Positions 5,931 to 44,224 of a stretch of DNA of 64,000 nucleotides are shown here, one piece after another (within the stretch, counting starts at the first letter, position 1; each line of letters starts with the position of its first letter). The position numbers and the translations under genes are program-made. The stretch is taken from positions 1-64,000 of the forward strand of contig JAABSA010000012.1 in assembly GCA_011390635.1 (NCBI GenBank). The letters are read 5' to 3'. The notes under the pieces are model-generated. The model was not told the origin of the DNA. It did not search any database and was given only the letters and a program-made list of their open reading frames with translations. The DNA comes from Desulfotignum sp. (lineage in GTDB: Bacteria; Desulfobacterota; Desulfobacteria; Desulfobacterales; Desulfobacteraceae).

Positions 5931-8177
5931 ATGACCGAAGATTCCAAACTGGATAGGCCTGCGAGCGCCGAGCAGGCAGTGCAAAAGGAAGTCGAGGAAA
6001 AGATCACCCGGAAGCCTTCCAGAAAACTTTTTGGAACGTTCAGCGGGGTCTTCACACCGACGCTTTTGACCATTTTAGGCGTGATCATGTATCTGCGGGT
6101 TGGCTGGGTGGTCGGCAACGCCGGACTTATCGGTGCATTGCTCATTATTTCTCTCGCATTTGCCATCACTTTCTGCACGGGCCTGTCCTTGTCCAGTATC
6201 ACCACCAACATCAGAATAGGTACAGGGGGCGCATTTTCGGTCATCTCACAATCTTTGGGCCTGGAAGTGGGTGGAAGTGTCGGCATTCCCCTCTATCTTG
6301 CACAGGCTTTGGCCGTTTCCATGTATATTTTTGGTTTTCGGGCCGGCTGGCTTTGGATTTTTCCTGATCATTCGCCCGTGCTGGTCGATCTTGGAACTTT
6401 CGCTGTATTGTTCACCATAGCCTTCATCAGCACGGGTTTGGCTTTTAAGATCCAGTATGTAATCCTGGTAACGATAATCGTTTCGTTGATTTCCGTTGGT
6501 GCTTCGGTTTTTACCGTATCGTGGGGTCAGGATGTGCAATGGTGGGGCGCCTTCCCCGGCTCTCGGGAGACATCGTTCCAGGGTGTTGACTTCTGGGTGG
6601 TGTTTGCTGTCTTTTTCCCTGCCGCGACCGGTATCATGGCGGGCGCCAACATGTCCGGGGACTTGGATAATCCCCGCAAAAGTATTCCTGTCGGAACGCT
6701 GGCAGCCATTGGCATATGTTTCGTAGTGTATATCCTGCTGGCGGTATGGTTGGCACTATCGGTGCCCACAGAAGAACTGCTCAACAATTACAATGTGATG
6801 ATTGATCGTGCCGTTTGGGGACCTGCCGTTCTGGCGGGGCTGCTGGGGGCCACTTTTTCCTCGGCCCTTTCCTCGCTGGTGGGCTCCCCGCGCATCCTGC
6901 AGGCCCTGGGCGAACACAAGCTTCTGCCCGCCAGTGACTGGTTTACTGTTCGTACAGCCAAGGGAGAGCCCCGTAACGCATTGCTCTTGACCGGCACAAT
7001 TGTGCTTGCTGCGCTCATGTTGAGAAACCTCAATGCCATTGCGCCCCTTATCACCATGTTCTTTTTGATCACCTATGCCACAATCAACGTTGTGGTGCTC
7101 ATCGAGCAAAGTCTCAAGCTGGTCAGTTTCCGGCCTCTTTTGCGTATCCCCCGATTTGTGCCGATAATAGGGACAGCGGGATGTCTTTTTGCCATGTTTA
7201 TCGTCAATGTGGTCTTTGGAGGCATTGCTATTGCGGTGGTGATCGCTTTGCATACATATCTGGTTCACAAGCGTATCAAAGCGCCTTTTGGCGATGTGCG
7301 CAGCGGGCTGTTCACCGCCCTGGCAGAATGGGCCGCCGGAAAAGTCGCAAGCCTGGCCGGTCCCCGCGAGAAAACATGGAAGGCAAATCTCCTTGTGCCT
7401 GTTGAAGACTCACGAGACATTGTAAACGTCTTTCCTCTGCTGCGGGACATCGCTCGACCCAATGGCTTTGTGCGCCTGCTCGGTCTGACCGGGGATCGGA
7501 ATTATGATGAAATGACAAAAAACCTTCCTGACCTGACAAAAAAATTTAAAGAGGATCAGATTTTTTCCACCTGGACGGTAGTTGACGCGGCAACTTTCAG
7601 TGACAACCTTGCGGCCGGACTTGAAGCCCTTGGCGGCGCTTTTTTCCGTTCCAGCATGATATTTCTTTCTTTTCCTGATAGCAGCCAGCGAGAAGAAAAA
7701 ATCCATCGAATTATTCAGGATGCCCGTAAAAACAAGCTGGGCGCCCTGCTTTTTTCAGGTGAAGAGTTTGCTCACTCAGCTGGTGGAATCGTTCATTTTA
7801 TCATCGATCGTCCGGATGACGGTTGGCGGATTGGTGTAGACCTGGAAAAAGCGGATCTGGCCTTTCTATTGGCCTACAAACTGAAACGAAACTGGAAGAC
7901 AGGCATGGTTTTCACCGCTTTTCTGTCAAAAGCAGGGGAAGATCAACAAGCGTTGGAATTTATGGAGGCGGTGGTGGAACTGGCAAGGGTCCCGAACGTC
8001 GAATTCAGGCTGGCGAGTTCGGAAAAAGAACTCCAAATGGATTCGGGCGATACCGCGATAACCATTTTCAGCATGTCCAATGAGGTAAATTTCAGAGAAA
8101 TGCACAAGCGGATTCAATTGGCGCAAAGCAATTGTCTTTTTGTCATGGATTCTGGATGGGAAAATGCACTGGCTTAG
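5931..8177 (+). CDS. SLC12-like cation-chloride/amino acid carrier (APC superfamily)
   Basis: The 748-residue protein has the SLC12/APC layout: a short cytoplasmic N-terminus, about 12 membrane helices (about 45-430) beginning with GVFTPTLLTILGVIMYLRVG, and a soluble C-terminal domain of about 300 residues typical of Na-K-Cl cotransporter relatives. Helix 6-type GIMAGANMSGDL is present. Bacterial members are mostly uncharacterised; amino acid or ion transport is inferred from the family. No strong ribosome site precedes the ATG. A paralog lies at 8765-10987 in opposite orientation, with gene debris between them. Confidence 0.85.
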   Translation: MTEDSKLDRPASAEQAVQKEVEEKITRKPSRKLFGTFSGVFTPTLLTILGVIMYLRVGWVVGNAGLIGALLIISLAFAITFCTGLSLSSITTNIRIGTGGAFSVISQSLGLEVGGSVGIPLYLAQALAVSMYIFGFRAGWLWIFPDHSPVLVDLGTFAVLFTIAFISTGLAFKIQYVILVTIIVSLISVGASVFTVSWGQDVQWWGAFPGSRETSFQGVDFWVVFAVFFPAATGIMAGANMSGDLDNPRKSIPVGTLAAIGICFVVYILLAVWLALSVPTEELLNNYNVMIDRAVWGPAVLAGLLGATFSSALSSLVGSPRILQALGEHKLLPASDWFTVRTAKGEPRNALLLTGTIVLAALMLRNLNAIAPLITMFFLITYATINVVVLIEQSLKLVSFRPLLRIPRFVPIIGTAGCLFAMFIVNVVFGGIAIAVVIALHTYLVHKRIKAPFGDVRSGLFTALAEWAAGKVASLAGPREKTWKANLLVPVEDSRDIVNVFPLLRDIARPNGFVRLLGLTGDRNYDEMTKNLPDLTKKFKEDQIFSTWTVVDAATFSDNLAAGLEALGGAFFRSSMIFLSFPDSSQREEKIHRIIQDARKNKLGALLFSGEEFAHSAGGIVHFIIDRPDDGWRIGVDLEKADLAFLLAYKLKRNWKTGMVFTAFLSKAGEDQQALEFMEAVVELARVPNVEFRLASSEKELQMDSGDTAITIFSMSNEVNFREMHKRIQLAQSNCLFVMDSGWENALA

Positions 8178-8764: not shown

Positions 8765-10987
8765 TCATGCTTCGATGGAAACCTCACCGGCGTTGTACAC
8801 AAAGATGATATCCCCGGGCAGTTCCAGGGTGCGCTCAAGGTCGGAAACAAGGTCTTGTCTGGTCTCAACGTCTGTTTCATCATCCGGGGGGACAAATCCC
8901 CTCAGCAGCAGGGCAGATGGCTGCATGCGCTGACGGACCGCATGAAGCGGGGTGTCGGTGGGAACAATGAACAGTTCGGCCTCGATACGGGCAAGGGCGA
9001 GCAGTTCCTGCATCTCTGTTTCAATGTTTTCTACATCTGCTTTGCGCACCACCGGGCGGATAACGCGGATGGGATGATCCCGCCACTCCCGGTTCTTTTT
9101 GAGCATAAACGCCAGCATCAGCATCAGGTGGGCATTTTTTGAGGAATCCCACCAGATATTGATGGTGCCTTTGGGAATAACATTGGTGTCACTGTCCTGT
9201 TTTGCCGCCACAATCATGAGATTGCGCCGCATCTCTTTGACCGTGGTAACGGTCTCCCAGAAGATGTCGGATTTTTCAGGGTCCCGGCTCCATCCGAGCA
9301 GCACCGTGTTGGGCCGCATGCCCCCGATCCCGTGGCACTGCAGCAGGGCCCTGATGGCGGCATGAAGGTCCTTTTCCACAACCACCACGGGAAAGGCCGG
9401 CAGTTTTTCTTTGACAAGGAACCGGCGGAGCACTTTTTCAGCTTCCCGGCGGCGATCCAGAAAATCATCCAGGTCGCCCTGGATCACCTGGCCGATGGAG
9501 ACAATGCCGCTGTCAATGGTAAACCAGCAGGCGTATTCCGCCAGCTGCAGGCGGTTGGCAGCCACACCGCCGAGGGTGAGAATGGAGGGCCGCCAGTTTT
9601 TGGGATGATACCTTTCCCGTTCCAGGCGCAGCAGGGCATTTCTGGCGACTTGAAAGGCAAGCCCCCCGTCCAGGTCTCCCCACTTTACTTGAATTTCCGA
9701 CCGGGCGATGAAAAAATACAGGGCACCGGCAAGCAGCAGGGCCACCAAAGCCCAGACCGCATTGATCAGAAACATGATCCCCAGGCATCCTGCGGCCCCG
9801 GCAAGGGCCACGGACCAGTGGTTGAAGCGGAAGGTGGGCCGGAAACTGGGGTTGCTGGACCGGCCTTCGTAAAAACAGGCCAGGTTCACGGCTGCATAGG
9901 TCATCAGAAAGAACATGGTGATCACCGGCGCGATGGTGTCCAGGTCTCCGGCAAGCACCCCGATCTGGGCAATAATGAAGGTCAGCACCGTGGCCCGTCT
10001 GGGTTCTCCCAGGGCCCCGCTGCCGCGGCCGAACCAGCGCAGCCGGGCAAAGATGTTGTCCCGGGCAAAGGCCTGGAGAATCCGGGGGGCGCCCATCATG
10101 CTGCCCAGGGCCGAAGAAAGGGTGGCGCAGAACACCCCGGCATAGATGAGTACCGGCAGATATGCCCGGTCTTTCATCACAAATCCGTCTCCCAGGAGCG
10201 TTTCCCGGGGCACACTGCCGGCCATCATGAAAGCGATGCCCGCATACATCAGTGCGGAAAACCCGATGGCGGCAAAGGTGCCGCTGGGGATGGCTTTACC
10301 CGGATCTTCCAGGTCTCCGGACATGTTGACCCCGGCCATGATGCCGGTGACAGCTGGAAAGAACAGGGCGAACACCGCAAAAAAAGAATAGGAAGGGGAC
10401 CATTGTGCCGACAGGTTGGCTGCCAGGATCTGGGGAGAAAATCCCATGCCCGCACCGATGAAAAAAGACAGAACAGAGAGCAGCAGAATGGCCAGAATGC
10501 CGTATTGGAGGCGGATGGTCCATCCGGCACCGATGTAGACACACACAAAGACAAGGATATGAACCAGGGTGGCAACGGTCCTGAAGGACCAGGAGATGTC
10601 GGGAAACGCGGAAAAAACCGCTTCCGTGAATCCCACCACATACAGGGTGACAGCCACGGCCTGGGCAATGTAGAAAAAAACCGCGATCACGCCGCCGGAT
10701 TCCACCCCCAAGCTGCGGCTGATCAGATAATAGGCCCCCCCGCCCTTGACCCGCATATTGGTGGCAATGGAAGCCACGGAGAGACCCGTTATAACGGAAA
10801 TGGCCTTGGCTGCCGCAAGGATCAAAAGGGTGTACCATAATCCTGCATATCCCACCACCGAGGAAAACCGCAGAAACATGATCACCCCGAGGATGGTCAG
10901 CAGGCTGGGGGTGAAAACACCGCCGAATGCCCCGAATTTTTTGGGCGGCGGATCTTCTGTGGTTTCTTGAGCAGGGGTATCAGTCAT
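8765..10987 (-). CDS. SLC12-like carrier, second paralog (APC superfamily)
   Basis: The 740-residue product aligns by eye with the carrier at 5931-8177: the same GVFTPSLLTILGVIMFLR entry, the same GIMAGVNMSGDL helix-6 motif, about 12 membrane helices (about 20-410) and a soluble C-terminal domain of about 300 residues ending in a negatively charged tail. Substrate is unknown. The stop faces the remnants at 8181-8740, and the two paralogs point toward each other across this debris. The start at 10987 has only a distant CAGGA site. Confidence 0.85.
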   Translation of the reverse strand: MTDTPAQETTEDPPPKKFGAFGGVFTPSLLTILGVIMFLRFSSVVGYAGLWYTLLILAAAKAISVITGLSVASIATNMRVKGGGAYYLISRSLGVESGGVIAVFFYIAQAVAVTLYVVGFTEAVFSAFPDISWSFRTVATLVHILVFVCVYIGAGWTIRLQYGILAILLLSVLSFFIGAGMGFSPQILAANLSAQWSPSYSFFAVFALFFPAVTGIMAGVNMSGDLEDPGKAIPSGTFAAIGFSALMYAGIAFMMAGSVPRETLLGDGFVMKDRAYLPVLIYAGVFCATLSSALGSMMGAPRILQAFARDNIFARLRWFGRGSGALGEPRRATVLTFIIAQIGVLAGDLDTIAPVITMFFLMTYAAVNLACFYEGRSSNPSFRPTFRFNHWSVALAGAAGCLGIMFLINAVWALVALLLAGALYFFIARSEIQVKWGDLDGGLAFQVARNALLRLERERYHPKNWRPSILTLGGVAANRLQLAEYACWFTIDSGIVSIGQVIQGDLDDFLDRRREAEKVLRRFLVKEKLPAFPVVVVEKDLHAAIRALLQCHGIGGMRPNTVLLGWSRDPEKSDIFWETVTTVKEMRRNLMIVAAKQDSDTNVIPKGTINIWWDSSKNAHLMLMLAFMLKKNREWRDHPIRVIRPVVRKADVENIETEMQELLALARIEAELFIVPTDTPLHAVRQRMQPSALLLRGFVPPDDETDVETRQDLVSDLERTLELPGDIIFVYNAGEVSIEA

Positions 10988-33289: not shown

Positions 33290-34318
33290 TTAATAGGCTT
33301 CGTCCATATCGAGATCTTCCTGGGTTACCGGATTTTTGAACAAATGATAGGCCCAGATCTGGTAGCAGATGACAATGGGAATAAACACCAGAACCACAGC
33401 CAGCATGATTTTCAATGTCAGTGGACTGGAAGATGCGTTAAACGCGGTAAGGTGCCAGTCCGGGTTCATGCTGGACGGAAACAGAGCAGGGAACAGTCCG
33501 ATGATGCCGAAAAAAGTGCACAGCACAATGGTGACAGCCGATGCAAACCAGGCCTTGAAATAGGTTTTTTTGTGTACAAAATACCGGATGCTCAACAGGG
33601 CTGCCACATTCACCAGGGTTACGAAAAACAAAACCGGGTACTGAAAATAATTGGCATACAGGTCAGTGGCAAAATAACTGGCAATCAGAAATATGACCGC
33701 AACCGGCACCAGTATCAGCCAGGTCTTTTGGGAAATCGCTACCATGCGCGTCTGCAAAGCTCCTGCGGATTTAATTGCCATCCAGTTGGCACCGTGTACA
33801 ATGAACAGCAGGACAAATAAAAGTCCCCCCAGCAGCCCGTAGGGATTGAGCAGTCTAAGGGTGTTGCCGTGGTACAACCCCTGGTCATCAAAGGGAATAC
33901 CCTGGAATATATTGGCAAAAGCAACCCCGAACAGCAGGGCCGGTAAAAAGCTGCCGATAAAGATCAGAAAGTCCCATACTTTTTTCCAGGCAGGGGTGTC
34001 GATTTTACTTCTGAAATGGATGGCAACCCCTCGGAAAATAAGGGCAAAGAGAATCAGCATCAGCGGGGTATAAAGCGCCGAAAACATGGTGGCGTAGACC
34101 AGAGGGAAAGCGGCAAAGGTCACCCCGCCGGCCGTGATGAGCCACACCTCATTGCCGTCCCACAAAGGACCTATGGCATTAAGCATGGTACGCCGGTCTG
34201 TATCGGTTTTGCCGGCAAAGGGGTAGATGGTGCCGATGCCGAAGTCAAACCCGGAGGTCATGAAAAAGACAGCCCACAAAAGGCCCCAGAGAAAAAACCA
34301 GATTGTTTGCAGTTCCAT
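33290..34318 (-). CDS. cydB: Cytochrome bd ubiquinol oxidase subunit II
   Basis: The 342-residue membrane protein has about eight to nine helices and the CydB N-terminus with WGLLWAVFFMTSGFDFGIG and GPLWDGNEVWLITAGG. It partners with CydA in the quinol:O2 oxidoreductase, which reduces oxygen to water without proton pumping. AAGGAG precedes the ATG. It follows cydA by 17 bases. In a sulfate reducer the complex is usually explained as oxygen detoxification or microaerobic respiration. Confidence 0.93.
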   Translation of the reverse strand: MELQTIWFFLWGLLWAVFFMTSGFDFGIGTIYPFAGKTDTDRRTMLNAIGPLWDGNEVWLITAGGVTFAAFPLVYATMFSALYTPLMLILFALIFRGVAIHFRSKIDTPAWKKVWDFLIFIGSFLPALLFGVAFANIFQGIPFDDQGLYHGNTLRLLNPYGLLGGLLFVLLFIVHGANWMAIKSAGALQTRMVAISQKTWLILVPVAVIFLIASYFATDLYANYFQYPVLFFVTLVNVAALLSIRYFVHKKTYFKAWFASAVTIVLCTFFGIIGLFPALFPSSMNPDWHLTAFNASSSPLTLKIMLAVVLVFIPIVICYQIWAYHLFKNPVTQEDLDMDEAY

Positions 34319-34335
34319 TATTTATGTACTCCTTT

Positions 34336-35646
34336 TTATCGGGTTGCGGCTTCAGGGCCTTCTTTAACAGTTTTGGCCATCAAAAAGAATCCCACCGCTC
34401 CCAGCAGACCGTACACAAGAATAAATCCCATAAGGGAGGTGAACACCTGGGTGGTGGATACAGGGGAGGCAGCTTCAGCGGTTTTCATCAGGCCGTATAC
34501 GATCCAGGGCTGCCGGCCCACCTCTGATACGATCCATCCCATTTCTATGGCAATATAGGGCAAAGGGAGGGAAAACATCATGATTTTCAGGTAAGTGGGG
34601 TTTTCCAGCAGTTTGTTGCGTTTGAACCATCCGTAAACGGTCAGCAGGATAAACAGGGTGCCCAGACCCACCATGGTTCTGAAACCGATAAATGTGGGCA
34701 GCACCGGGGGGCGCTCATCTTTGGGGATATCCCGCAGCCCCGTGACTTCAGCATTGAAATCATGAAATCCCAGAAAACTCAAGATACCGGGAATCGCACC
34801 GATTTCAATGCGGTTTCTTTCATTTTCTTCATCCGGGATGGCAAACAGCACCAGGGGTGCCCGGGTCTGGGTTTCCCAGTGGGATTCCATGGCAGCCAGC
34901 TTGGCCGGCTGGGTCTTGGACACATTCACCCCGTGCATATCCCCGGTGACGGCAACCAGGACAGCACTGACAAGACCCACCACCAGACCGATGCGGAAAG
35001 AGGGCTCAAATACATCCAGGTGCTGTTTTCTCAGCAGATGCCAGGCAGCGACACCCATGATGAAAAAAGCGGACAGCAGCAGGGCTGAGGGTATAACATG
35101 AATGATTTCCAGAATTCCGTGCTTGTTGGTGATCAGGGCAAAAAAACTGTCCAGTTCAGCCCTGCCGTCCCGGATCACATATCCCACCGGGTTCTGCATA
35201 AACCCGTTGGCGAGCAGGATCCACACAGCCGACATGTTTCCGGCAAAGGCAATGACCCACATCACCCCGGCATGGGCTTTAGGGGACAGTTTTTTCCATC
35301 CAAAAATCCAGATGCCGATAAAGGTGGATTCCAGAAAAAACGCCACAGAGGCCTCGATGGCCAGAAGCGAGCCGAAAATATCCCCCACATAAGCGGAATA
35401 TCTTGACCAGTTGGTGCCGAATTGAAATTCCAGGGTGATGCCCGTAACCACCCCCAGGGCGAAATTGATCAAAAACAGCTTTCCCCAGAATTTGGTCATG
35501 CGCAGATAGTTTTCCTTCCCCGTTCTGGCGTATTTGGTTTCCATATAGGCAACGAGAATGGAAAGTCCCAGGGTCAGGGGAACAAACAGAAAATGGAACA
35601 TGGTGGCTGCGGCAAATTGCAGTCGGGACAAAAAAACCGGATCCAT
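34336..35646 (-). CDS. cydA: Cytochrome bd ubiquinol oxidase subunit I
   Basis: The 436-residue heme-bearing subunit has the N-terminal RLQFAAATMFHFLFVPLTLG with the axial His of the high-spin heme, a GRQPWIVYGLMKT region characteristic of CydA, and about nine helices. It is shorter than the 522-residue E. coli protein, so it has the short quinol-loop form. GGAGG precedes the ATG. A sigma-54 promoter is centred about 55 bases upstream (35694-35709). Confidence 0.94.
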   Translation of the reverse strand: MDPVFLSRLQFAAATMFHFLFVPLTLGLSILVAYMETKYARTGKENYLRMTKFWGKLFLINFALGVVTGITLEFQFGTNWSRYSAYVGDIFGSLLAIEASVAFFLESTFIGIWIFGWKKLSPKAHAGVMWVIAFAGNMSAVWILLANGFMQNPVGYVIRDGRAELDSFFALITNKHGILEIIHVIPSALLLSAFFIMGVAAWHLLRKQHLDVFEPSFRIGLVVGLVSAVLVAVTGDMHGVNVSKTQPAKLAAMESHWETQTRAPLVLFAIPDEENERNRIEIGAIPGILSFLGFHDFNAEVTGLRDIPKDERPPVLPTFIGFRTMVGLGTLFILLTVYGWFKRNKLLENPTYLKIMMFSLPLPYIAIEMGWIVSEVGRQPWIVYGLMKTAEAASPVSTTQVFTSLMGFILVYGLLGAVGFFLMAKTVKEGPEAATR

Positions 35647-35693: not shown

Positions 35694-35709
35694 AGCAATT
35701 CATGTGCCA
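35694..35709 (-). promoter_or_regulatory. Sigma-54 promoter upstream of cydAB
   Basis: On the minus strand the sequence TGGCACATGAATTGCT matches the -24/-12 consensus TGGCAC-N5-TTGCW exactly, with ten bases between the invariant GG and GC. Transcription would start near 35683, about 37 bases before the cydA ATG. Confidence 0.8.
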
Positions 35710-36229: not shown

Positions 36230-36871
36230 TCAGGCTTTTTTGGTGGCCTTGGTTTCCCAGTCTTCGATTTTGGTGGTATCGTAAATTTCTTCCCATCCCG
36301 TGATCATGCCTTTGATATGGCTGAACAAAGAATGGCCGGTGGTGGTCATGTACACATGAATGATCAGAAAGTTCACCAGCAGGTAGGCGGCAAGGGTGTG
36401 GATGACGGCAATGGGGGCCAGGGAGACGTCGCCTAAGCTGTTGTACAGGTAGTACAATAGACCGGTGGCCATCTGTACCGGCAGCAGCATGGCGGAAATT
36501 CCCAGGTAGGCCAGCCGCTGCAGGGGATTGTGCTTGGCGCCCGGTGATTTCTGCACCGGGTGGTCCTGGCCGTGGAAAATGCCCCAGGCATAGTACCGGG
36601 CCACGGCAAACAGCTTTTTCGTGGTGGGGATGTACTGTTTCCACTCCCCGGTGATGACCAGCCAGAAGGCAAAAAAGGCGAAAGATCCCAGCCAGAAAAG
36701 GCCAACAAAGTTGTGGACCTCCACGGCAGCCTCAAAGCCCATGAGGGAATACAGGCCGTGCACTTCAAATCCGGTGATCATGAGAATGATGATCATCAGG
36801 GCCTGGAACCAGTGCCAGAGCCGTTCGAACCGGGTATATAGATACACTTTTACTAGTTTTGTGTCAGCCAT
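36230..36871 (-). CDS. Cytochrome b membrane subunit (Ni-hydrogenase/formate dehydrogenase type)
   Basis: The 213-residue protein has about four to five membrane helices with His residues in positions typical of b-type heme ligation (RLWHWFQALMIIILMITGFE, HNFVGLFWLG, and a later NFLIIHVYMTTTGHS). It resembles the di-heme cytochrome b of hydrogenases, formate dehydrogenases and thiosulfate reductases. The gene starts three bases after the octaheme cytochrome gene ends, its GAGGAG site lying within that gene's end, so it probably passes electrons between the quinone pool and the octaheme protein. Confidence 0.85.
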   Translation of the reverse strand: MADTKLVKVYLYTRFERLWHWFQALMIIILMITGFEVHGLYSLMGFEAAVEVHNFVGLFWLGSFAFFAFWLVITGEWKQYIPTTKKLFAVARYYAWGIFHGQDHPVQKSPGAKHNPLQRLAYLGISAMLLPVQMATGLLYYLYNSLGDVSLAPIAVIHTLAAYLLVNFLIIHVYMTTTGHSLFSHIKGMITGWEEIYDTTKIEDWETKATKKA

Positions 36872-36874
36872 GGG

Positions 36875-38599
36875 TTACTCCTCTCTGCCGTTGCGGGTAA
36901 AAAACCGGCCCAGTCCGTGGAGCATCACCCCTGCCAAGGCCCCAAGCACCGCAAACATGCCGAAGGTGTCCAACAGATCGAACCGGTCACGGCCGGGCAT
37001 GTACACTCCGGTAATGCCGGCCAGGCGGGAATTTTCCCTGATATGACAGGCCGTGCATGCCAGTGCGTTTTCCGCCGGTGCCACCATGTGGGTGATGGGA
37101 AAGGCATAGGTGGTTTCCACGTAGTCAAATTCTCCTGAATAGGGTACATCCAGGGTCTGGTTGCCTATGGTGATGGCTTCATCCATGTCAAAGGTGGTCC
37201 AGAATCCTTTGGCACCGGAAAGCAGCGGGGCCACCAGCTGTTTGTTGATTTTGTCATAGGGCTGTTTTCCCCTGTGGATCTTGAAAGGATGAATCCGCGC
37301 ATCGGGGTCATCAGGCGATCCCAGTGGATGGCTCACTTCAACAACCTGCTGGGGATCGATTTCATCTTTGATGCCGATATTGTCAAAAGATCCATTGTAC
37401 CAGAAGTATTCAGGGGTAACATTTTTTGCCCAGATGAAATCGCCTTTAATGGATTTGTAGACAGGCTTGCCGAATTCTCCTTTTTCTTCATAAGGTTTGC
37501 CGTCTTTCATTTTGCCGGCTGTTGTCCAGTCCCACCACATCATTGTGGGATTGACCCGTGCAAATTCCGGGATATGGCAGCTCTGGCAGGACACCTTGTC
37601 TGTATGGTCGTTCATCTTGGTACTGGCTTTGTGGGGGGTTGCACTGTGACAGGATTCACAAGTGATTTTGGAGGCCATGTCATCTTCGATCAGGCTTTTT
37701 CTCTCTGCTGCAGCCGGCCGGGTGTACAGACGTCCTGCAATATGGTGCTTGACCGTTGTGTGACATCGGGTGCAGGAAAAATCAGGGCCATCTACAGCCA
37801 TGTGCACATCCAGCATTCGATTGGGGTTGGTCATGGAGGTGTCCAGGTCCCCGTGTTTGACACCATCGCCTCCGCCGCCCTTGAAATGGCATTCCCCGCA
37901 GTTGTTCCGTCCGGGAAGCGTGACATTCTTTACTGCTGTCCGTATACCGGATTGCAGCTCTTCAACGATTTGCAATATATCCGGGTCATCATCTCCTTCA
38001 AAGGCAGCAAGGTCTGCAAACGTTTCCTTGAACGGAAATTTTTCTTCTCCGTGACAGGCCAGGCAGTTGACCAGTCCGTCTGTACCGTCCCAACCGGCAT
38101 GACAGCTCAGGCAGCTCTTGTCCTCCATGGCATTTCCGGAAATACAAAAATTGTTTACTGCATGGCCTGCCTTGCCGTTCATGATCCCGGGCTTTTCAGA
38201 GGGCACTTCCCAGGTCCAGTGGATGGTTTCTTCAAACTGCATGGCTGCATCAGTATGACAGGAAAGGCAGGCCTGGGTGATCTGGTCACCGGATGTGAAA
38301 TTCTGATTCAAAACATCCAGTTTGCTATGGTCAACCGTTGTCCAGTGTTTGTCGGCCCGGACCGCCTGTTTGGCCAGTTTCAGTCCCAATGCTTCTTCTT
38401 GTGCGGCTGCGGCCACCGATGCCGCCGCCGGACCGGAGACGGCCAGTATCCCGAAAACCAGTACAGCCGCCAGTGCCGCCGTCCACCAGGATCCAGGGGA
38501 TGCCGGTCGATATGAATCATTTGTCCGGGCGAATGCCGTTTTTGCCTGGACGGTTTTTGTCGGACCGCCCCGGACCTTTTGCTTCAGATGTATTCCCAT
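36875..38599 (-). CDS. Octaheme c-type cytochrome (tetrathionate reductase/OTR family)
   Basis: The 574-residue protein has an N-terminal membrane or signal segment (about 38-60), eight CxxCH heme motifs (residues 111-115, 163-167, 179-183, 234-238, 276-280, 314-318, 338-342 and 515-519) and a C-terminal membrane helix (about 545-563). Spacing and length fit the OTR family, whose members reduce tetrathionate, nitrite or hydroxylamine in vitro; the physiological substrate is uncertain. GGAGG precedes the ATG. It is coupled to a cytochrome b gene and preceded by a heme-less cytochrome-like gene. Confidence 0.9.
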   Translation of the reverse strand: MGIHLKQKVRGGPTKTVQAKTAFARTNDSYRPASPGSWWTAALAAVLVFGILAVSGPAAASVAAAAQEEALGLKLAKQAVRADKHWTTVDHSKLDVLNQNFTSGDQITQACLSCHTDAAMQFEETIHWTWEVPSEKPGIMNGKAGHAVNNFCISGNAMEDKSCLSCHAGWDGTDGLVNCLACHGEEKFPFKETFADLAAFEGDDDPDILQIVEELQSGIRTAVKNVTLPGRNNCGECHFKGGGGDGVKHGDLDTSMTNPNRMLDVHMAVDGPDFSCTRCHTTVKHHIAGRLYTRPAAAERKSLIEDDMASKITCESCHSATPHKASTKMNDHTDKVSCQSCHIPEFARVNPTMMWWDWTTAGKMKDGKPYEEKGEFGKPVYKSIKGDFIWAKNVTPEYFWYNGSFDNIGIKDEIDPQQVVEVSHPLGSPDDPDARIHPFKIHRGKQPYDKINKQLVAPLLSGAKGFWTTFDMDEAITIGNQTLDVPYSGEFDYVETTYAFPITHMVAPAENALACTACHIRENSRLAGITGVYMPGRDRFDLLDTFGMFAVLGALAGVMLHGLGRFFTRNGREE

Positions 38600-38627
38600 A
38601 ATGCCTCCGAAAAGAGATCAGGCTGCC

Positions 38628-38659
38628 GCGCCGGCAGGTGCGGGTAGATCTGCCGGCGC
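38628..38659. repeat. GC-rich hairpin between two operon genes
   Basis: A perfect 10-bp inverted repeat (38628-38637 and 38650-38659) with a 12-base loop separates the small cytochrome-like gene from the octaheme gene. It has no T run and may tune the relative expression of the two genes. Confidence 0.5.
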
Positions 38660-38669
38660 GAGAACCGGT

Positions 38670-39020
38670 TTAGCTGCATGTGGCAGGTGCGGGAGAGTCC
38701 TTGGCAAATGCATGGAAATAGGCATGTATATCCTTGATATCCTGTTCGGATATGGCATCCCATTGTGCCTGGCAGCCAAATGCTTCAAAGTTGCGGGATT
38801 CGAAAATCTGTTTCCATTCGGCCCGGGTCATGTCAGCCGGGCTGACAGTGGGGGAGGGGGAATCCACGCCCCCGTTTTCATGGCAGGCCTTGATCACTTT
38901 GCGGTAGGTGTATTTGCCTTTGCGTTCGTTGCCGTCCGGGGCGTCATCGGCAAACACGGCGGGAACGGATCCCAGGGTGAAAAGGGCCAGGGTGAAAAAA
39001 ACAAGCATCTTTTTAAACAT
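38670..39020 (-). CDS. Exported cytochrome c-like protein lacking an intact heme motif
   Basis: The 116-residue product has a signal peptide (about 1-24, ending FADD) and a C-terminal region reminiscent of small class I cytochromes c, with a conserved pattern around DIKDIHAYFHAFAKD. Where the CxxCH motif is expected it reads KVIKACHENGG, so the first heme-linking Cys is replaced (IKACH). AAGGAG precedes the ATG at 39020, which is better than the in-frame start at 39044. It lies directly upstream of the octaheme cytochrome gene. It may bind heme with one thioether, or none. Confidence 0.7.
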   Translation of the reverse strand: MFKKMLVFFTLALFTLGSVPAVFADDAPDGNERKGKYTYRKVIKACHENGGVDSPSPTVSPADMTRAEWKQIFESRNFEAFGCQAQWDAISEQDIKDIHAYFHAFAKDSPAPATCS

Positions 39021-39154
39021 GGGTAACTCTCCTTTGTCTGTCATTGTCTGGATCTTACTCTTTTTTTTCTCAAATGTCTTTCTTAATTATTTTTTTGGTT
39101 CACCCTCAATATTCAAATGAATTCAATTCAGAGGATGACTTCCGGTTTACGGGA

Positions 39155-40252
39155 CTATTTGGGCGCCTTGATGGTATAGGTGCCGTCTTTTTTAAAACTG
39201 ATCTGGGCTTCCACATAATACACATCTGTCAAAGATTCTCTGACATCCTTGACCATATAGTAGGCTTCGCCGCTTCTGGCTCCTGTGGAACATACAAATA
39301 CAACTGGTTTGTCTGCCGGCAGATCAGCTATTTTGGGCTCCAGTTTTTCCACCGGGATGTTCACGGCAGTCGTAAAATGGCCTTTGGCAAATTCATCCGG
39401 GTCCCGGGTGTCTATCAGCATGATGGATGCAGGATTCTCCGCCAAAATGGCTTTAAACCGGTCCAGATCAATGGATCCCTCGATTTCGCCTGCCTTGACT
39501 GCCACAGTATCAGCAGCAGCGCCAAATTGTTTTTTCCATTCAGGGTATCCTAAAGCAAACACGGATACTTCCTTGTATCCCATGACAATGGCCCTGGCAG
39601 CACTTTTGTGGCTTAACCGGCACTCAAGTCCGCCGCAGTAGAAAATAACGGGGGTTTCAAGGCTTCGGGGCAGTTTGCCGGACAGTTCATCAAAATGGGT
39701 AAAAGGAATGCTGATGGCGGTGGGAATATGGCCTTTATCATACATGGGTTTCTGGGGACGGGAGTCCACCACCAGGGTTTTGTTTTCCGCAATTTTTGCA
39801 GCAACATATTCTGCTGATACAGCGGCATAGGCCCCGGGCTGGTTCAGATATTCGGGAAATCCCTTGGCAAATACCTTGACGTTTTTATAACCCAGTTTTT
39901 CGGCTTTTTGGGCGGATTTATGGCTGAGTTTGCATTCCACACCCCCGCAGTAGAAAATCAGCAGGGCGTTTTTGTCTTTGGGCAGAAGATCGGTTTTTTT
40001 ATCAAATTCCGTGTCCGGAATGCTCACGGCACCCGGTATATGCCCTTTGACATACATGGGTTTGTAAGGCCGTGCATCGATGATCATGACATTGTTCGCC
40101 ATGGGGACGGTGACATGGGCGATGACAAAGTCCGCTTCCACAATGTCATGGTACATCCAGTCTTCGGCAGCCAGGGCATGCATGGCGCCGGCCAAAAGAA
40201 ACAGGCAGGCTGCCATGGCAAGAAACGTTTGTTTTAATGGATGAATGTTCAT
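39155..40252 (-). CDS. Exported protein with three rhodanese domains
   Basis: The 365-residue protein has a signal peptide (about 1-29) and three rhodanese domains (about 40-140, 145-250 and 265-355). The first two active loops read FYCGGVECKLSHKSA and FYCGGLECRLSHKSA; the third reads VCSTGARSGEAYY. Each loop begins with the sulfur-accepting Cys. Rhodaneses transfer sulfane sulfur. The start at 40252 follows a GAGAAACC site and begins the signal peptide, unlike the longer frame from 40360. It heads the probable operon that continues to the octaheme cytochrome. Confidence 0.9.
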   Translation of the reverse strand: MNIHPLKQTFLAMAACLFLLAGAMHALAAEDWMYHDIVEADFVIAHVTVPMANNVMIIDARPYKPMYVKGHIPGAVSIPDTEFDKKTDLLPKDKNALLIFYCGGVECKLSHKSAQKAEKLGYKNVKVFAKGFPEYLNQPGAYAAVSAEYVAAKIAENKTLVVDSRPQKPMYDKGHIPTAISIPFTHFDELSGKLPRSLETPVIFYCGGLECRLSHKSAARAIVMGYKEVSVFALGYPEWKKQFGAAADTVAVKAGEIEGSIDLDRFKAILAENPASIMLIDTRDPDEFAKGHFTTAVNIPVEKLEPKIADLPADKPVVFVCSTGARSGEAYYMVKDVRESLTDVYYVEAQISFKKDGTYTIKAPK

Positions 40253-40350: not shown

Positions 40351-40366
40351 AGCAACCCATGTGCCA
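40351..40366 (-). promoter_or_regulatory. Sigma-54 promoter upstream of the rhodanese gene
   Basis: On the minus strand TGGCACATGGGTTGCT matches the -24/-12 consensus with exact spacing. Transcription would start near 40340, giving a leader of about 88 bases to the rhodanese ATG. Confidence 0.85.
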
Positions 40367-40474: not shown

Positions 40475-40503
40475 GTTAATCATGTGTTAAGTTGTTGATT
40501 AAC
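40475..40503. promoter_or_regulatory. Candidate activator-binding dyad
   Basis: GTTAATCA at 40475-40482 and TGATTAAC at 40496-40503 form an exact 8-bp dyad with centres 21 bases apart, about 110 bases upstream of the rhodanese sigma-54 promoter and just before the activator gene. Distance and spacing fit an enhancer for a sigma-54 activator. No exact copy was found near the other two sigma-54 promoters. Confidence 0.35.
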
Positions 40504-40526: not shown

Positions 40527-41921
40527 ATGGATATTGGAAAAAACTGGCGGGTGATTATAGATTCGGTTCAGGATGGGATTATCCTGGTTGATGAACAAGG
40601 CAATTTCATTGCTGCCAACCACTCGGCCCAGCTCATGACAGGATATACAGAAGACCAGCTCATTGGCCGGTCCTGCCGGATCCTAAACTGCACCGGGTGT
40701 GAAATCAAGGGCATTGGAAAAGGAAAAGACTGGTGCATGCTTTTTTCCCAGGGTCTGGTCCGGGATAAAAAATGCATGATAACCGACAGCCGCAAACAGA
40801 CTATCCCCATCGTCAAAACCGCAACAGTGCTGTACGATGATGCTGGACAGATCACAGGGGCTGTGGAAACCCTCAAGGATATTTCAGAAAATATCAGTTA
40901 TAAAAATGAACTGGATACCATTAAACGCATTTACCATATTGATGACGGGTTCCATGGGATTATCGGCCGCACCCCGGTGATGCAGAATCTTTTTGAGCAT
41001 ATCCAGGGGGTTGCCTCCCTGGACACGCCGGTGATTATTCTCGGAGAAAGCGGTACCGGCAAGGAGATGGTGGCCAAGGCCCTGCACGAAAAAGGCAGCC
41101 GGGCTGACAAACCCTTTGTCAAGGTCAATTGTGCAGCTTTGAGTGAAACCATTCTGGAAAGCGAGTTGTTCGGCCATGTGAAAGGCGCGTATACCGGGGC
41201 TGCAAATGACCGTATCGGCCGGTTTGAAGCAGCCCACCAGGGCACGATTTTTCTGGATGAAATCGGGGATATCCCCTTGTCAGTCCAGGTGAAACTGCTG
41301 CGGGTGCTGGAGGAACAGATGATACAGCGGGTGGGGGATAACCGGTCCATACCCATTAACGTGCGTATCATCACCGCCACCAACAAGGACCTTGAACAAA
41401 TGATTCTCCAGGGAGAATTTCGTCAGGACCTGTATTTCAGGATCAATGTGTTTCCTTTGATCTGTCCTCCTTTACGCCATCGCAAGGATGATATCACCTT
41501 GATCATCCAGCATTTTATCAGTATTCTGGCACAAAAAACAAAGAAAAACATTCTCGGGTTTACCCCCCAGGCCATGCGGATCATGGTGAACTACCCCTGG
41601 CCCGGCAATATCAGGGAGTTACGCAATACCGTGGAATATGCCTTTGTGCTGGCAAAAGGAAAAAGTATCGGCACCGAACATCTGCCGGAAAAACTGCTGC
41701 AGCATAATCCAGGCACATCCAATCCCATGGCTTCCCGGCCTGATCCAGTTGTTCCTGCGGAAATATCTCGCAAACAATCGGAAAAAGCAGCTCTGGTGGA
41801 GGCTTTGCAGAAAAGCGACGGCAACCAGACAAAGGCGGCACAGATGCTGGGGGTATCCCGGGTAACGGTGTGGAAACGCATGAAAAAACACCGGGTTGCC
41901 CTGAAAAATGCAAAAGAGTAA
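40527..41921 (+). CDS. Sigma-54-dependent PAS-AAA+-Fis transcriptional activator
   Basis: The 464-residue protein has a PAS domain (about 5-115) with five cysteines at 50, 55, 58, 70 and 83, an AAA+ domain (about 140-370) with Walker A GESGTGKE and the sigma-54 contact loop GAYTGA (consensus GAFTGA), and a C-terminal Fis-type helix-turn-helix (about 425-458, TKAAQMLGVSRVTVWKRMKK). AGGAG precedes the ATG. It is divergent from the rhodanese operon, whose promoter is of sigma-54 type, and is therefore the likely activator. The Cys cluster may bind a metal or sense redox or sulfur (inference). Confidence 0.92.
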   Translation: MDIGKNWRVIIDSVQDGIILVDEQGNFIAANHSAQLMTGYTEDQLIGRSCRILNCTGCEIKGIGKGKDWCMLFSQGLVRDKKCMITDSRKQTIPIVKTATVLYDDAGQITGAVETLKDISENISYKNELDTIKRIYHIDDGFHGIIGRTPVMQNLFEHIQGVASLDTPVIILGESGTGKEMVAKALHEKGSRADKPFVKVNCAALSETILESELFGHVKGAYTGAANDRIGRFEAAHQGTIFLDEIGDIPLSVQVKLLRVLEEQMIQRVGDNRSIPINVRIITATNKDLEQMILQGEFRQDLYFRINVFPLICPPLRHRKDDITLIIQHFISILAQKTKKNILGFTPQAMRIMVNYPWPGNIRELRNTVEYAFVLAKGKSIGTEHLPEKLLQHNPGTSNPMASRPDPVVPAEISRKQSEKAALVEALQKSDGNQTKAAQMLGVSRVTVWKRMKKHRVALKNAKE

Positions 41922-42056: not shown

Positions 42057-42072
42057 TGGCACCATGTTTGCT
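42057..42072 (+). promoter_or_regulatory. Sigma-54 promoter upstream of the thioredoxin-like operon
   Basis: TGGCACCATGTTTGCT fits TGGCAC-N5-TTGCT with the invariant GG and GC ten bases apart. Transcription would start near 42083, about 59 bases before the ATG at 42142. Confidence 0.8.
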
Positions 42073-42141: not shown

Positions 42142-42714
42142 ATGAAAAAAGAAAATATACTGGTCATTGTACTGGTAACCATTGCCCTGGCCGGTTTGTT
42201 CTGGTTTTTCACAGCCCGGATGGGGCCAAACAATCCTGCTGATACAGGTGGTACTGAACCGGTTGCAGCAGTACAAAAACCTGACGTGGAAGCAACAGGT
42301 AACGCTATGGTGGAAAACGGTAACGCCGGGCAAAATAACAGGATCAACTGGAAAGATTATACCCCGGGCCTGGCCCAGGCCAAAACCCAGGACAAAAATG
42401 TATTTCTGTATTTTTATGCCCAGTGGTGCACCTATTGCACCCAGCTCAAAAAGACCACGTTTGTGGATGAAAAGGTTTTGGCATATCTGGAGAAAAATTT
42501 TGTCAGTATCTCCGTTGATACAGATCAGAATCAAACTTTGTCCCAGACATGGCAGGTAAAGGGACTGCCCACCATGTGGTTTCTTACCCCTGACGGCAGC
42601 AGGATCAGCAGTCTTCCCGGTTATGTTGACGGATCTCAGCTTTTACAGATTCTCAGATATATTCATACCAAAAGCTATGACAACATGAGTTTTCAGGATT
42701 TTGTCAAAAGCTGA
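42142..42714 (+). CDS. Membrane-anchored thioredoxin-like protein
   Basis: The 190-residue protein has an N-terminal membrane anchor (about 6-25), a low-complexity linker (about 30-65) and a thioredoxin-fold domain (about 75-185) with the redox motif YAQWCTYCTQL and the cis-Pro loop GLPTMWFL. It resembles the C-terminal domain of DsbD and thioredoxin_7 proteins and should face the periplasm. AAGGAG precedes the ATG. It heads a three-gene unit with a ferredoxin-type protein and a membrane subunit. Confidence 0.85.
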   Translation: MKKENILVIVLVTIALAGLFWFFTARMGPNNPADTGGTEPVAAVQKPDVEATGNAMVENGNAGQNNRINWKDYTPGLAQAKTQDKNVFLYFYAQWCTYCTQLKKTTFVDEKVLAYLEKNFVSISVDTDQNQTLSQTWQVKGLPTMWFLTPDGSRISSLPGYVDGSQLLQILRYIHTKSYDNMSFQDFVKS

Positions 42715-42740: not shown

Positions 42741-43706
42741 ATGACCATGAGTTCACCAATTTCACGACGGCATTTTTTAAAAACCTCTTTTTTTGCGGCT
42801 GGTACGGCAATTGCCGGCACCGGTATTGCGAAGGCTGCAACGCCTGCGGATGCTGACAAAGAGCCCCTGGTAACCCTGATCGATATCAGCCGGTGCATCG
42901 GGTGTGAAGAGTGCGTGTATGCCTGTCAGGATGCCAATGCCCATAAATTTGCCGACCCCAAAAAACCGTTTCCCAGAATGTATCCGGACCGGGTTCCGGT
43001 GGAAGACTGGTCAGACCGCCGGGATGTAACCGACCGCCTGACGCCTTATACCTGGCTGTATATCCAGTATGCCAGCGCCACCACCAAAGAGGGAGAAAAT
43101 ATTACTTTGACCATTCCCCGGCGCTGCATGCACTGCGCGAATCCGCCCTGTGTAAAGCTGTGCCCCTGGGGGGCGGCCAAACAGGAAACAAACGGGTTGT
43201 CCCGCATTGATTCACAGATCTGCCTGGGCGGATCCAAATGTAAAACAGTCTGTCCCTGGGAAATTCCCCAGCGCCAGACCGGTGTGGGCCTTTACCTGGA
43301 TCTTTTGCCCGCATTTGCGGGCAACGGGGTGATGTACAAATGCGACCGGTGTTATCAGAAGATTGAAAAAGGGGAACAGCCTGCCTGTATTGAAGTCTGC
43401 CCCGAAGAGGTCCAGACCATTGGCAAACGATCCGATATGATCAGGAAGGCCAGTGAACTGGCCAAAGAGATGGACGGCTATATTTACGGCCTGGAGGAAA
43501 ACGGGGGAACAAATACCATTTATGTGTCTCCGGTTCCCTTTGACCAGCTGGTGTATGACACGGGCAAGGGAAAACCCCATCTGAACCCGGTAAAAGATAC
43601 CATGGCAGATGGATCAAACCTGGCCCTGGCCATGGTTATTGCCCCGGTGGCCGGTGCTGCCGCAGCCGTTGGAAAATTTTACAAGCAGATGAAAGAGGAT
43701 GCCTGA
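42741..43706 (+). CDS. Tat-exported 4Fe-4S ferredoxin-type electron-transfer subunit
   Basis: The 321-residue protein begins with a Tat signal (SRRHFLKTSFFAAG) and has four cysteine clusters for 4Fe-4S centres: CIGCEECVYAC (about residues 52-62), CMHCANPPCVKLC, CLGGSKCKTVC and CDRCYQKIEKGEQPACIEVC. This is the layout of FdnH/PsrB/HybA-like subunits. A catalytic molybdopterin subunit is not adjacent, so the partner may lie elsewhere or be the thioredoxin-like protein. Its stop overlaps the next gene's start at 43706. Confidence 0.88.
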   Translation: MTMSSPISRRHFLKTSFFAAGTAIAGTGIAKAATPADADKEPLVTLIDISRCIGCEECVYACQDANAHKFADPKKPFPRMYPDRVPVEDWSDRRDVTDRLTPYTWLYIQYASATTKEGENITLTIPRRCMHCANPPCVKLCPWGAAKQETNGLSRIDSQICLGGSKCKTVCPWEIPQRQTGVGLYLDLLPAFAGNGVMYKCDRCYQKIEKGEQPACIEVCPEEVQTIGKRSDMIRKASELAKEMDGYIYGLEENGGTNTIYVSPVPFDQLVYDTGKGKPHLNPVKDTMADGSNLALAMVIAPVAGAAAAVGKFYKQMKEDA

Positions 43707-44224
43707 TGTTGTATCATTTTACAGCGCGCCGCACGGTATACGGACTGATACTTTTTTTCATTGTCCTGTCCGGGTTTGCCCAGATGCCCATCTTTGACCG
43801 GTATTATGTTTCAGACATCCCGGGTCTGGGATGGCTGGCCCAATTTTATGTCACCCATGTCATTCATTATATCATGGCTGCCTTACTTCTGGGACTCTGT
43901 GCCTATGTGGCGGTGGACTTTTTCTTATACCGCCGGTTCAGCACCGGAGCATCCAGGGCTGACCGGAAATCAGCGGGCAATCGCAGTTCCATTGCTACCC
44001 GAAACTCTTTGCCCACGCGGATAACCATCTCGGGAATGGTAAAAATAGGTGCTCTTTCAGGTCTGGTTGTCACCGGCTGTTTCATGGTGGTGAAAAATCT
44101 GTCCCTTGTCTACTTTCCCCACGGGGTGGTCATCGGTCTGGATCTTTTGCACCTGCTTTTTGGCATGGTGCTGCTGGGCGCCACCGCCTATACCTGGATT
44201 CGCCGCAGGACCTGGGTCGTCTGA
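43706..44224 (+). CDS. Cytochrome b-like membrane subunit
   Basis: The 172-residue protein has four predicted membrane helices with His residues placed for b-type heme binding (YVTHVIHYIMAALLL and LDLLHLLFGM). It probably anchors the Fe-S subunit encoded just upstream and exchanges electrons with menaquinone. A basic loop of about 35 residues (about 78-110) joins helices 2 and 3. The family is not certain: it could be a short formate-dehydrogenase-gamma-like or DUF4405-like protein. Confidence 0.7.
   Translation: MLYHFTARRTVYGLILFFIVLSGFAQMPIFDRYYVSDIPGLGWLAQFYVTHVIHYIMAALLLGLCAYVAVDFFLYRRFSTGASRADRKSAGNRSSIATRNSLPTRITISGMVKIGALSGLVVTGCFMVVKNLSLVYFPHGVVIGLDLLHLLFGMVLLGATAYTWIRRRTWVV

Follow-up and report, generated by a model that had tools for sequence, protein, structure and literature searches.

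Four adjacent genes on the minus strand of the DNA analyzed here, a 64,000-nucleotide stretch (the window) from a Desulfotignum-like sulfate reducer, encode a triple rhodanese, a small exported protein derived from a cytochrome that has lost its heme motif, an octaheme c cytochrome of the tetrathionate reductase (OTR) family, and a cytochrome b. Judging from conservation among relatives, these genes most likely form one operon under one sigma-54 promoter. With moderate confidence, we read the operon as encoding a menaquinol-linked periplasmic reductase of S-S bonds, which would act on tetrathionate, polysulfide, or thiosulfate/sulfane sulfur. The window lies on contig C9 of genome G000 (4.09 Mb, 98 contigs). 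The window OTR was 90% identical to an OTR of a Desulfotignum metagenome-assembled genome. An earlier note on this DNA gave the coordinates and order of the four genes as we found them; with the elements upstream, and in the order of transcription for the operon, they are as follows.

40527 to 41921, plus strand: divergent sigma-54 activator, with PAS (five conserved cysteines), AAA+, and Fis-type helix-turn-helix (HTH) domains
40475 to 40503, no strand assigned: candidate activator site, an inverted repeat GTTAATCA-N13-TGATTAAC recognized by eye, its right half in a conserved block
40352 to 40366, minus strand: predicted sigma-54 promoter of the operon, TGGCACATGGGTTGC, ahead of the triple rhodanese (pattern TGGCAC-N5-TTGC)
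39155 to 40252, minus strand: triple rhodanese with a signal peptide (by eye); three PF00581 stretches, E 6e-47; loops compared across loci
38670 to 39020 (open reading frame [ORF] possibly from 39044), minus strand: heme-less, cytochrome-derived small exported protein with three conserved cysteines; profile, alignment, and structure model
36875 to 38599, minus strand: octaheme c cytochrome of the OTR family, with equivalents of Cys64, Asp150, and Lys153; TIGR04315, 506.8 bits; 1sp3, E 2.4e-95
36230 to 36871, minus strand: cytochrome b, PF01292, PhsC-like, with invariant H20, H53, H158, and H172; profile and alignment

The export signals previously proposed for the operon proteins were borne out by eye.

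Linkage of the gene set in one OTR subclade

A first set of 39 relative loci was found by closeness to the query and is biased toward near kin. Within it, the rhodanese stood beside OTR in 34 loci, and four of the five loci without it were cut by a contig end; the small protein was recognized in 32 loci and the cytochrome b in 38. A second set comprised 60 OTR-centered regions, picked for spread among the matches listed, plus the second OTR of the window genome, and 20 small-protein regions were picked mostly away from OTR. Many loci were fetched twice, and deduplicated counts are given for OTR sites, activators, and promoters. Across all 60 regions, the small protein was found in 30 (27 heme-less and 3 with CXXCH), the triple rhodanese in 25, and the cytochrome b in 49.

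An OTR tree of 72 rows placed the window inside a clade of 41 rows (support, 100/100) that holds 31 of the 60 regions. The small protein accompanied OTR in 28 of these 31 regions, the triple rhodanese in 23, and the cytochrome b in 30, whereas the small protein and the triple rhodanese were each present in 2 of the other 29. These counts establish that the linkage is real and that it belongs mainly to one OTR subclade, so the expectation that OTR homologs adjoin multi-rhodanese genes in related genomes held chiefly there. Context labels also clustered on the tree, with 11 changes where shuffling gave a mean of 31.5 and none of 200 shufflings went as low; near-copies contribute to such clustering. 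Since some clade members and most of the sampled regions outside the clade lack the triple rhodanese, it is not needed for OTR itself, and because the rhodanese and the small protein are each absent from some clade members, neither is strictly needed. Gene order varied between rhodanese-small protein and small protein-rhodanese, with a DUF3373-type gene between the two in loci L059 and L060. The two OTR types occur next to each other in locus L119.

A conserved sigma-54 site and a five-cysteine activator

The sigma-54 pattern alone was not significant in 64 kb (5 found versus 5.1 expected). Its position was conserved: in 62 of 74 distinct stretches, a sigma-54-type site lay between the activator and the first gene (67 of 81 with duplicates), compared with 1.9% in Markov resamplings. 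No such site was found in the remaining 12 distinct stretches (L014, L059, L060, L114, L122, L125, L126, L150, L157, L166, L167, and L168), including L157 and L059/L060, which are closely related to the window. Sigma-70-like sites between 35600 and 40600 were not above chance (6 found versus 5.8 expected), and the two longer intergenic gaps of the operon held no terminator-like site on the minus strand. These data agree with the proposal that one sigma-54 promoter serves all four genes.

The divergent activator, which the earlier note had not included in the unit, was recognized by profile as a PAS-AAA-HTH protein. Cysteines 50, 55, 58, 70, and 83 of its PAS domain were present in all 87 to 88 aligned activators (those scoring at least 500, duplicates included). 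A looser five-cysteine pattern was found in 83 of 84 activators scoring at least 500 with frames of at least 380 amino acids (aa), and the sole miss, L013, has a frame reaching the locus end. None of seven activators scoring 150 to 500 carried the pattern, and three of these (L144, L160, and L161) have an OTR gene close by.

Invariant residues of the octaheme cytochrome

The window OTR scored 506.8 bits against TIGR04315 (cutoff, 375) and is thus a member of this family. In a sample of 389 genomes of the class, OTR was matched in 270 and exceeded the cutoff in 221. Aligned to Shewanella oneidensis OTR (1sp3; E 2.4e-95), the window protein was 43% identical (171 of 396 aligned positions) and shared the eight CXXCH motifs and the equivalents of Cys64, Asp150, and Lys153, the last of which we take to ligate the active-site heme. 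The comparison with the Shewanella enzyme was made at the level of the protein; the window OTR differs by a hydrophobic C-terminal stretch (by eye) and by its operon partners, the PhsC-like cytochrome b, the triple rhodanese, and the heme-less small protein.

Lys153 was conserved in 122 of 122 distinct OTRs, and Asp150 was Asp in 111 of 122. The position of Cys64, counted by hand on the alignment of OTR to 1sp3, was occupied by Cys in 145 and by an in-frame TGA in 20 of 165 OTRs (108 and 14, respectively, of 122 distinct sequences). The TGA probably encodes selenocysteine (Sec), and a match to SelB over the cutoff was present on contig C71 of the window genome. That Cys64 is replaced by nothing other than probable selenocysteine would be difficult to understand if this residue took no part in the reaction. 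TIGR04315 appears, without a motif, among the GenBank-annotated selenoproteins tabulated in a 2026 review (PMC13188914); a selenocysteine form of OTR as such was therefore already known. We found no paper on Cys64 in octaheme cytochromes in the open-access literature.

The second OTR of the window genome (contig C27, 33721-34953; G000:C27:33721-34953, locus L071, also L122:8985-11057) has an in-frame TGA at the Cys64 position, and its neighbors are an Fe-S gene, another ORF (403 aa), and a divergent five-cysteine activator. Loci L125 to L129 belong to another OTR subclade, in which open frames of 727 to 1107 aa exceed the OTR domain and stand beside an Fe-S gene; L126 and L128 additionally have a heme-type small protein, a PhsA-like enzyme, and a rhodanese.

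Dithiol loops of the triple rhodanese

The first protein of the operon matched PF00581 at 158.7 bits (cutoff, 22.2) in three stretches, each with an active-site cysteine recognized by eye, which makes it a rhodanese. Translation was assigned to ATG 40252, which follows AGGAG, since the longer ORF from 40360 would begin within the promoter. The window loops read CGGVEC and CGGLEC, both dithiol loops of the CxxxxC type, and CSTGARSGE. Among relatives, loops 1 and 2 were CxGxxC or CxGxxU, and loop 3 was CxTGARSGE in most. An in-frame TGA at the second cysteine of loop 1, and sometimes of loop 2 (CxGxxU), was observed in L056, L061, L126, L128, L131, L134, L142, L175, L176, and L180; here too the codon probably specifies selenocysteine.

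A cytochrome-derived small protein without a heme motif

For the small protein, the ribosome-binding site favored ATG 39020 over 39044 as the start. The protein resembles class I cytochromes c in a weak, subthreshold match to Cytochrome_CBB3 (PF13442; 18.0 bits, cutoff 27), and it differs from them in having no CXXCH; no covalent c heme is thus expected on it. An AlphaFold model (pLDDT, 87.1) consisted of four helices. Foldseek returned no match to this model at an E value of 0.001 or less, and VIA-align returned mostly class I cytochromes at low Z, the best being 2fwt (Z 5.6; rmsd 2.9 over 63 residues). Kinship to a CXXCH-bearing sister group is stronger evidence of cytochrome descent than this structure comparison.

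The small-protein profile (A1) was matched in 168 of the 389 genomes. Residues were counted in 87 distinct sequences after rows with fewer than 70 aligned letters (L051 fragments) had been dropped; 13 carried CXXCH and 74 did not. The CXXCH-bearing sequences invariably had the histidine and both cysteines of the heme motif, along with two more cysteines, C2 and C3. In the 74 heme-less proteins, the first heme cysteine was lost in 73 (Tyr in 46) and the histidine was lost in 51 and kept in 23, whereas the second heme cysteine (C1) and C2 were each retained in 73 and C3 was retained in all 74. The claim of a heme-less partner therefore stood with respect to the missing motif and was revised in another respect: rather than being an isolated degenerate cytochrome, the window protein belongs to a clade-wide family that keeps one heme cysteine.

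Two other accounts of these proteins were rejected. A pseudogene was ruled out by the conserved cysteines together with dN/dS values of 0.09 to 0.22 for the window against five relatives; synonymous sites approach or exceed saturation in most of these pairs. Attachment of heme through a single cysteine occurs in euglenozoan cytochromes; it was ruled out here because the following histidine is not conserved (present in only 23 of 74).

The two forms of the small protein kept different company. A PhsA-like gene lay within 8 kb at 8 of 13 heme-type loci but at 0 of 37 heme-less loci, including 0 of 6 heme-less loci without OTR; 4 of the 8 positive loci supplied the PhsA profile, and the heme-type regions L165 and L169 are short contigs. 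OTR was near 3 of 13 heme-type and 31 of 37 heme-less loci, frequencies that are biased by sampling, as the PhsA contrast is to a lesser degree. Four PhsA-like proteins scored 559.6 to 564.6 bits against NCBIfam, below the cutoff of 694.

A DUF3373 protein often accompanies the small protein where the rhodanese is absent, and DUF3373 was matched by 4 of 5 proteins searched. It is perhaps a porin, and we found no literature on DUF3373 in connection with thiosulfate. L170 to L172, L178, and L179 combine a heme-less small protein with a DUF3373-type gene, and no OTR or rhodanese turned up within 8 kb in the stretches fetched.

A cytochrome b with four invariant histidines

The last gene of the operon matched PF01292 at 86.5 bits. 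Its best NCBIfam match was the thiosulfate reductase cytochrome B model NF011582 (PhsC), at 105.1 bits, below the cutoff of 204 for that family. H20, H53, H158, and H172 were invariant in 118 to 119 cytochrome b sequences (duplicates included), as expected for two b hemes, and are putative heme ligands. The four histidines bear out the idea of a membrane di-heme quinol link.

Comparison with known systems

Psr is a molybdoenzyme; no Phs/Psr molybdopterin catalytic subunit was found among the four operon genes, to which that search was limited. The Psr operon of Desulfurivibrio dismutans, as described in the accessible text, resembles the window operon in pairing an exported triple rhodanese with a periplasmic sulfur reductase, and this rhodanese operon is upregulated in sulfur-disproportionating cells (PMC12142623). 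The catalytic part differs, being the polysulfide reductase Psr in D. dismutans and an octaheme cytochrome in the window. Together with the CXXCH-bearing sister of the small protein beside PhsA-like enzymes, this parallel strengthens the sulfane-sulfur theme that had been suggested for the triple rhodanese.

Other systems share single elements. In Thermosulfurimonas dismutans an octaheme OTR adjoins a cytochrome b gene, and the accessible text of that report mentions no rhodanese or small protein beside the pair (PMC4911364). Cluster 5-T of Dethiobacter alkaliphilus has an octaheme sulfur cytochrome, upregulated with thiosulfate, with rhodanese genes nearby; that cytochrome is distant, being 20 to 23% identical to Otr or SirA, and no cytochrome-derived small protein is mentioned in the accessible text (PMC10376724). 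TsoB (NF045694), described as a rhodanese/DsbD fusion-like selenoprotein, likewise has two reactive loop residues five apart, UxxxxU (PMC13188914). The window rhodanese scored 108.6 bits against a TsoB cutoff of 805, lacks the DsbD fusion, and has CxxxxC in place of selenocysteine, and is thus outside that family. OTR with cytochrome b, the triple rhodanese with Psr, and the selenocysteine form of OTR are already in print separately; no description of OTR, a heme-less cytochrome, and a triple rhodanese as a set was found in the open-access literature.

Neighboring units with their own sigma-54 sites

Two units beside the operon also follow sigma-54-type sites.

42057 to 42071, plus strand: sigma-54 site TGGCACCATGTTTGC before the thioredoxin operon, conserved in relatives
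42142 to 42714, plus strand: thioredoxin-like protein with an N-terminal hydrophobic stretch (by eye); CxxC in 27 of 27
42741 to 43706, plus strand: twin-arginine 4Fe-4S protein, HmcB/HybA-like; HmcB model, 130 bits, below the cutoff of 420
43706 to 44224, plus strand: small membrane protein with three invariant histidines (H51, H54, and H149; alignment), a possible cytochrome b; profile searches gave no family match over the cutoff
35695 to 35709, minus strand: sigma-54 site TGGCACATGAATTGC before cydAB, conserved in relatives
34336 to 35646, minus strand: CydA-like, cytochrome bd oxidase subunit I; PRK15097, 390.7 bits, below the cutoff of 968
33290 to 34318, minus strand: CydB, cytochrome bd oxidase subunit II; TIGR00203, 307.7 bits, cutoff 117.3

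The site before cydA recurred in 18 of 20 relatives (17 of 19 distinct) and the site before the thioredoxin gene in 24 of 26 (24 of 25 distinct), against 2 to 3% by chance in both cases; one thioredoxin-promoter match (L049) falls inside a reading frame. The notion of a single promoter therefore stands for the rhodanese operon and needs refinement for its surroundings, where two neighboring units have conserved sites of their own. The rhodanese-OTR operon, cydAB, and the thioredoxin/Fe-S/membrane operon possibly constitute one regulon. No activator site common to the three promoters was found in the 34, 25, and 21 upstream stretches aligned, and only the rhodanese promoter shows an inverted repeat noticeable by eye.

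Elsewhere in the window, two large proteins encoded nearby on opposite strands (5931 to 8177, plus; 8765 to 10987, minus) share the start FGxFxGVFTPxLLTILGVIM and are perhaps paralogous membrane transporters (by eye).

Discussion

From the gene set and its conserved residues we infer a direction of electron flow, a substrate, a carrier role, and a signal for the S-S reductase. Cytochrome b would take electrons from quinol, as its four-histidine family suggests, and pass them to the eight-heme OTR. There an S-S bond would be cleaved at the lysine-ligated heme, with a catalytic Cys64 (probably selenocysteine in some relatives) attacking sulfur. The dithiol rhodaneses 1 and 2 may accept sulfane sulfur and present it as persulfide; the rhodanese would supply or remove sulfane sulfur, and the heme-less small protein may serve as a docking partner or persulfide carrier in which the old heme-binding cysteine has been repurposed. 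Upon a redox or sulfane-sulfur signal received by its five-cysteine PAS domain, the divergent activator would turn on the sigma-54 promoter. More tentatively, and with considerable doubt, the parts can be seen as a relay of new design: sulfur would pass from dithiol or selenothiol rhodaneses to a cytochrome that has shed its heme and would carry a C1 persulfide, and on to an octaheme Cys/Sec enzyme, with an octaheme or a PhsA-like protein as the catalytic part and a five-cysteine PAS sensor.

Several observations weigh against an S-S reductase of this kind. With menaquinol as the donor, thiosulfate or polysulfide reduction is energetically uphill and would need proton motive force. In L177, C1 and C2 are lost together, which suggests a C1-C2 disulfide in preference to a C2-C3 one or to a free carrier thiol. 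The genes also occur apart: six heme-less loci have no OTR nearby, 8 of the 31 clade regions lack the triple rhodanese, and 27 of the 29 regions outside the clade have neither triple rhodanese nor small protein. Between rhodanese and OTR, the small gene is missing from L048 and L055 and reduced to a shortened frame in L051; the small protein is also absent from the clade regions L144 and L159, and from L130, whose rhodanese frame ends at the fetched contig end. The five-cysteine pattern is thus not present in every OTR locus either, the activator adjacent to OTR in L144 being without it, and the conserved cydAB promoter suggests a link to oxygen. Finally, OTR family members also reduce nitrite and hydroxylamine in vitro, according to the accessible parts of PMC6449678 and PMC4484225.

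This last point underlies the alternative that the enzyme is a nitrite or hydroxylamine reductase for detoxification or ammonification, with the rhodanese a bystander. The Shewanella OTR, whose heme set and lysine are the same as those of the window OTR, is presented as an enzyme that reduces nitrite and hydroxylamine (PMC4484225), and a purified relative was the strongest nitrite reductase among the purified Beggiatoaceae enzymes (PMC6449678). However, the Beggiatoaceae enzyme is reported to reduce tetrathionate significantly faster than nitrite (PMC6449678), and both the conserved linkage with the triple rhodanese and the PhsA-like enzymes accompanying the sister of the small protein speak against this role. 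We consider it unlikely.

It is also rather unlikely that the chain runs in reverse, such that sulfide, persulfide, or thiosulfate would be oxidized and electrons would flow through cytochrome b and quinone to cytochrome bd and oxygen, in micro-oxic sulfide oxidation or protection. Conversion of sulfide to polysulfide with menaquinone is downhill, the rhodaneses would carry sulfane sulfur away, and the conservation of the sigma-54 site before cydAB fits such a scheme. On the other side, the cydAB promoter shares no activator site that we could find, cydAB stood beside the operon only in the genus and family of the window among the regions surveyed, and OTRs were assayed as reductases in the cited papers, as far as their accessible text goes (PMC6449678 and PMC4484225).

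A role in periplasmic thiol homeostasis, in which the operon and the thioredoxin, Fe-S, and membrane proteins would feed electrons to protein disulfides or persulfides with no sulfur respiration, appears improbable. The thioredoxin operon does have its own conserved sigma-54 site, and in profile searches the rhodanese and the thioredoxin each resembled parts of TsoB. Yet the thioredoxin was matched only in L153, L156, L157, L159, and L181 among the regions surveyed, all from the genus or family of the window, and it can be argued that a housekeeping role would hardly warrant the cost of eight hemes and a quinol link. That the cluster is an accident of gene order with no joint function is very hard to credit, for despite the variable order and the intervening DUF3373-type gene in L059 and L060, the OTR tree groups the context labels and a single promoter-like site has been conserved.

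OTR occurs in most of the genomes sampled from the class, and its residues and partners offer clues to its natural substrate. The presence of cysteine or probable selenocysteine at the Cys64 position in every distinct OTR compared, and of partners in common with PhsA-like enzymes, points to S-S chemistry. The small protein provides a clear case in which the heme motif of a cytochrome has been lost while one heme-binding cysteine is still under selection.

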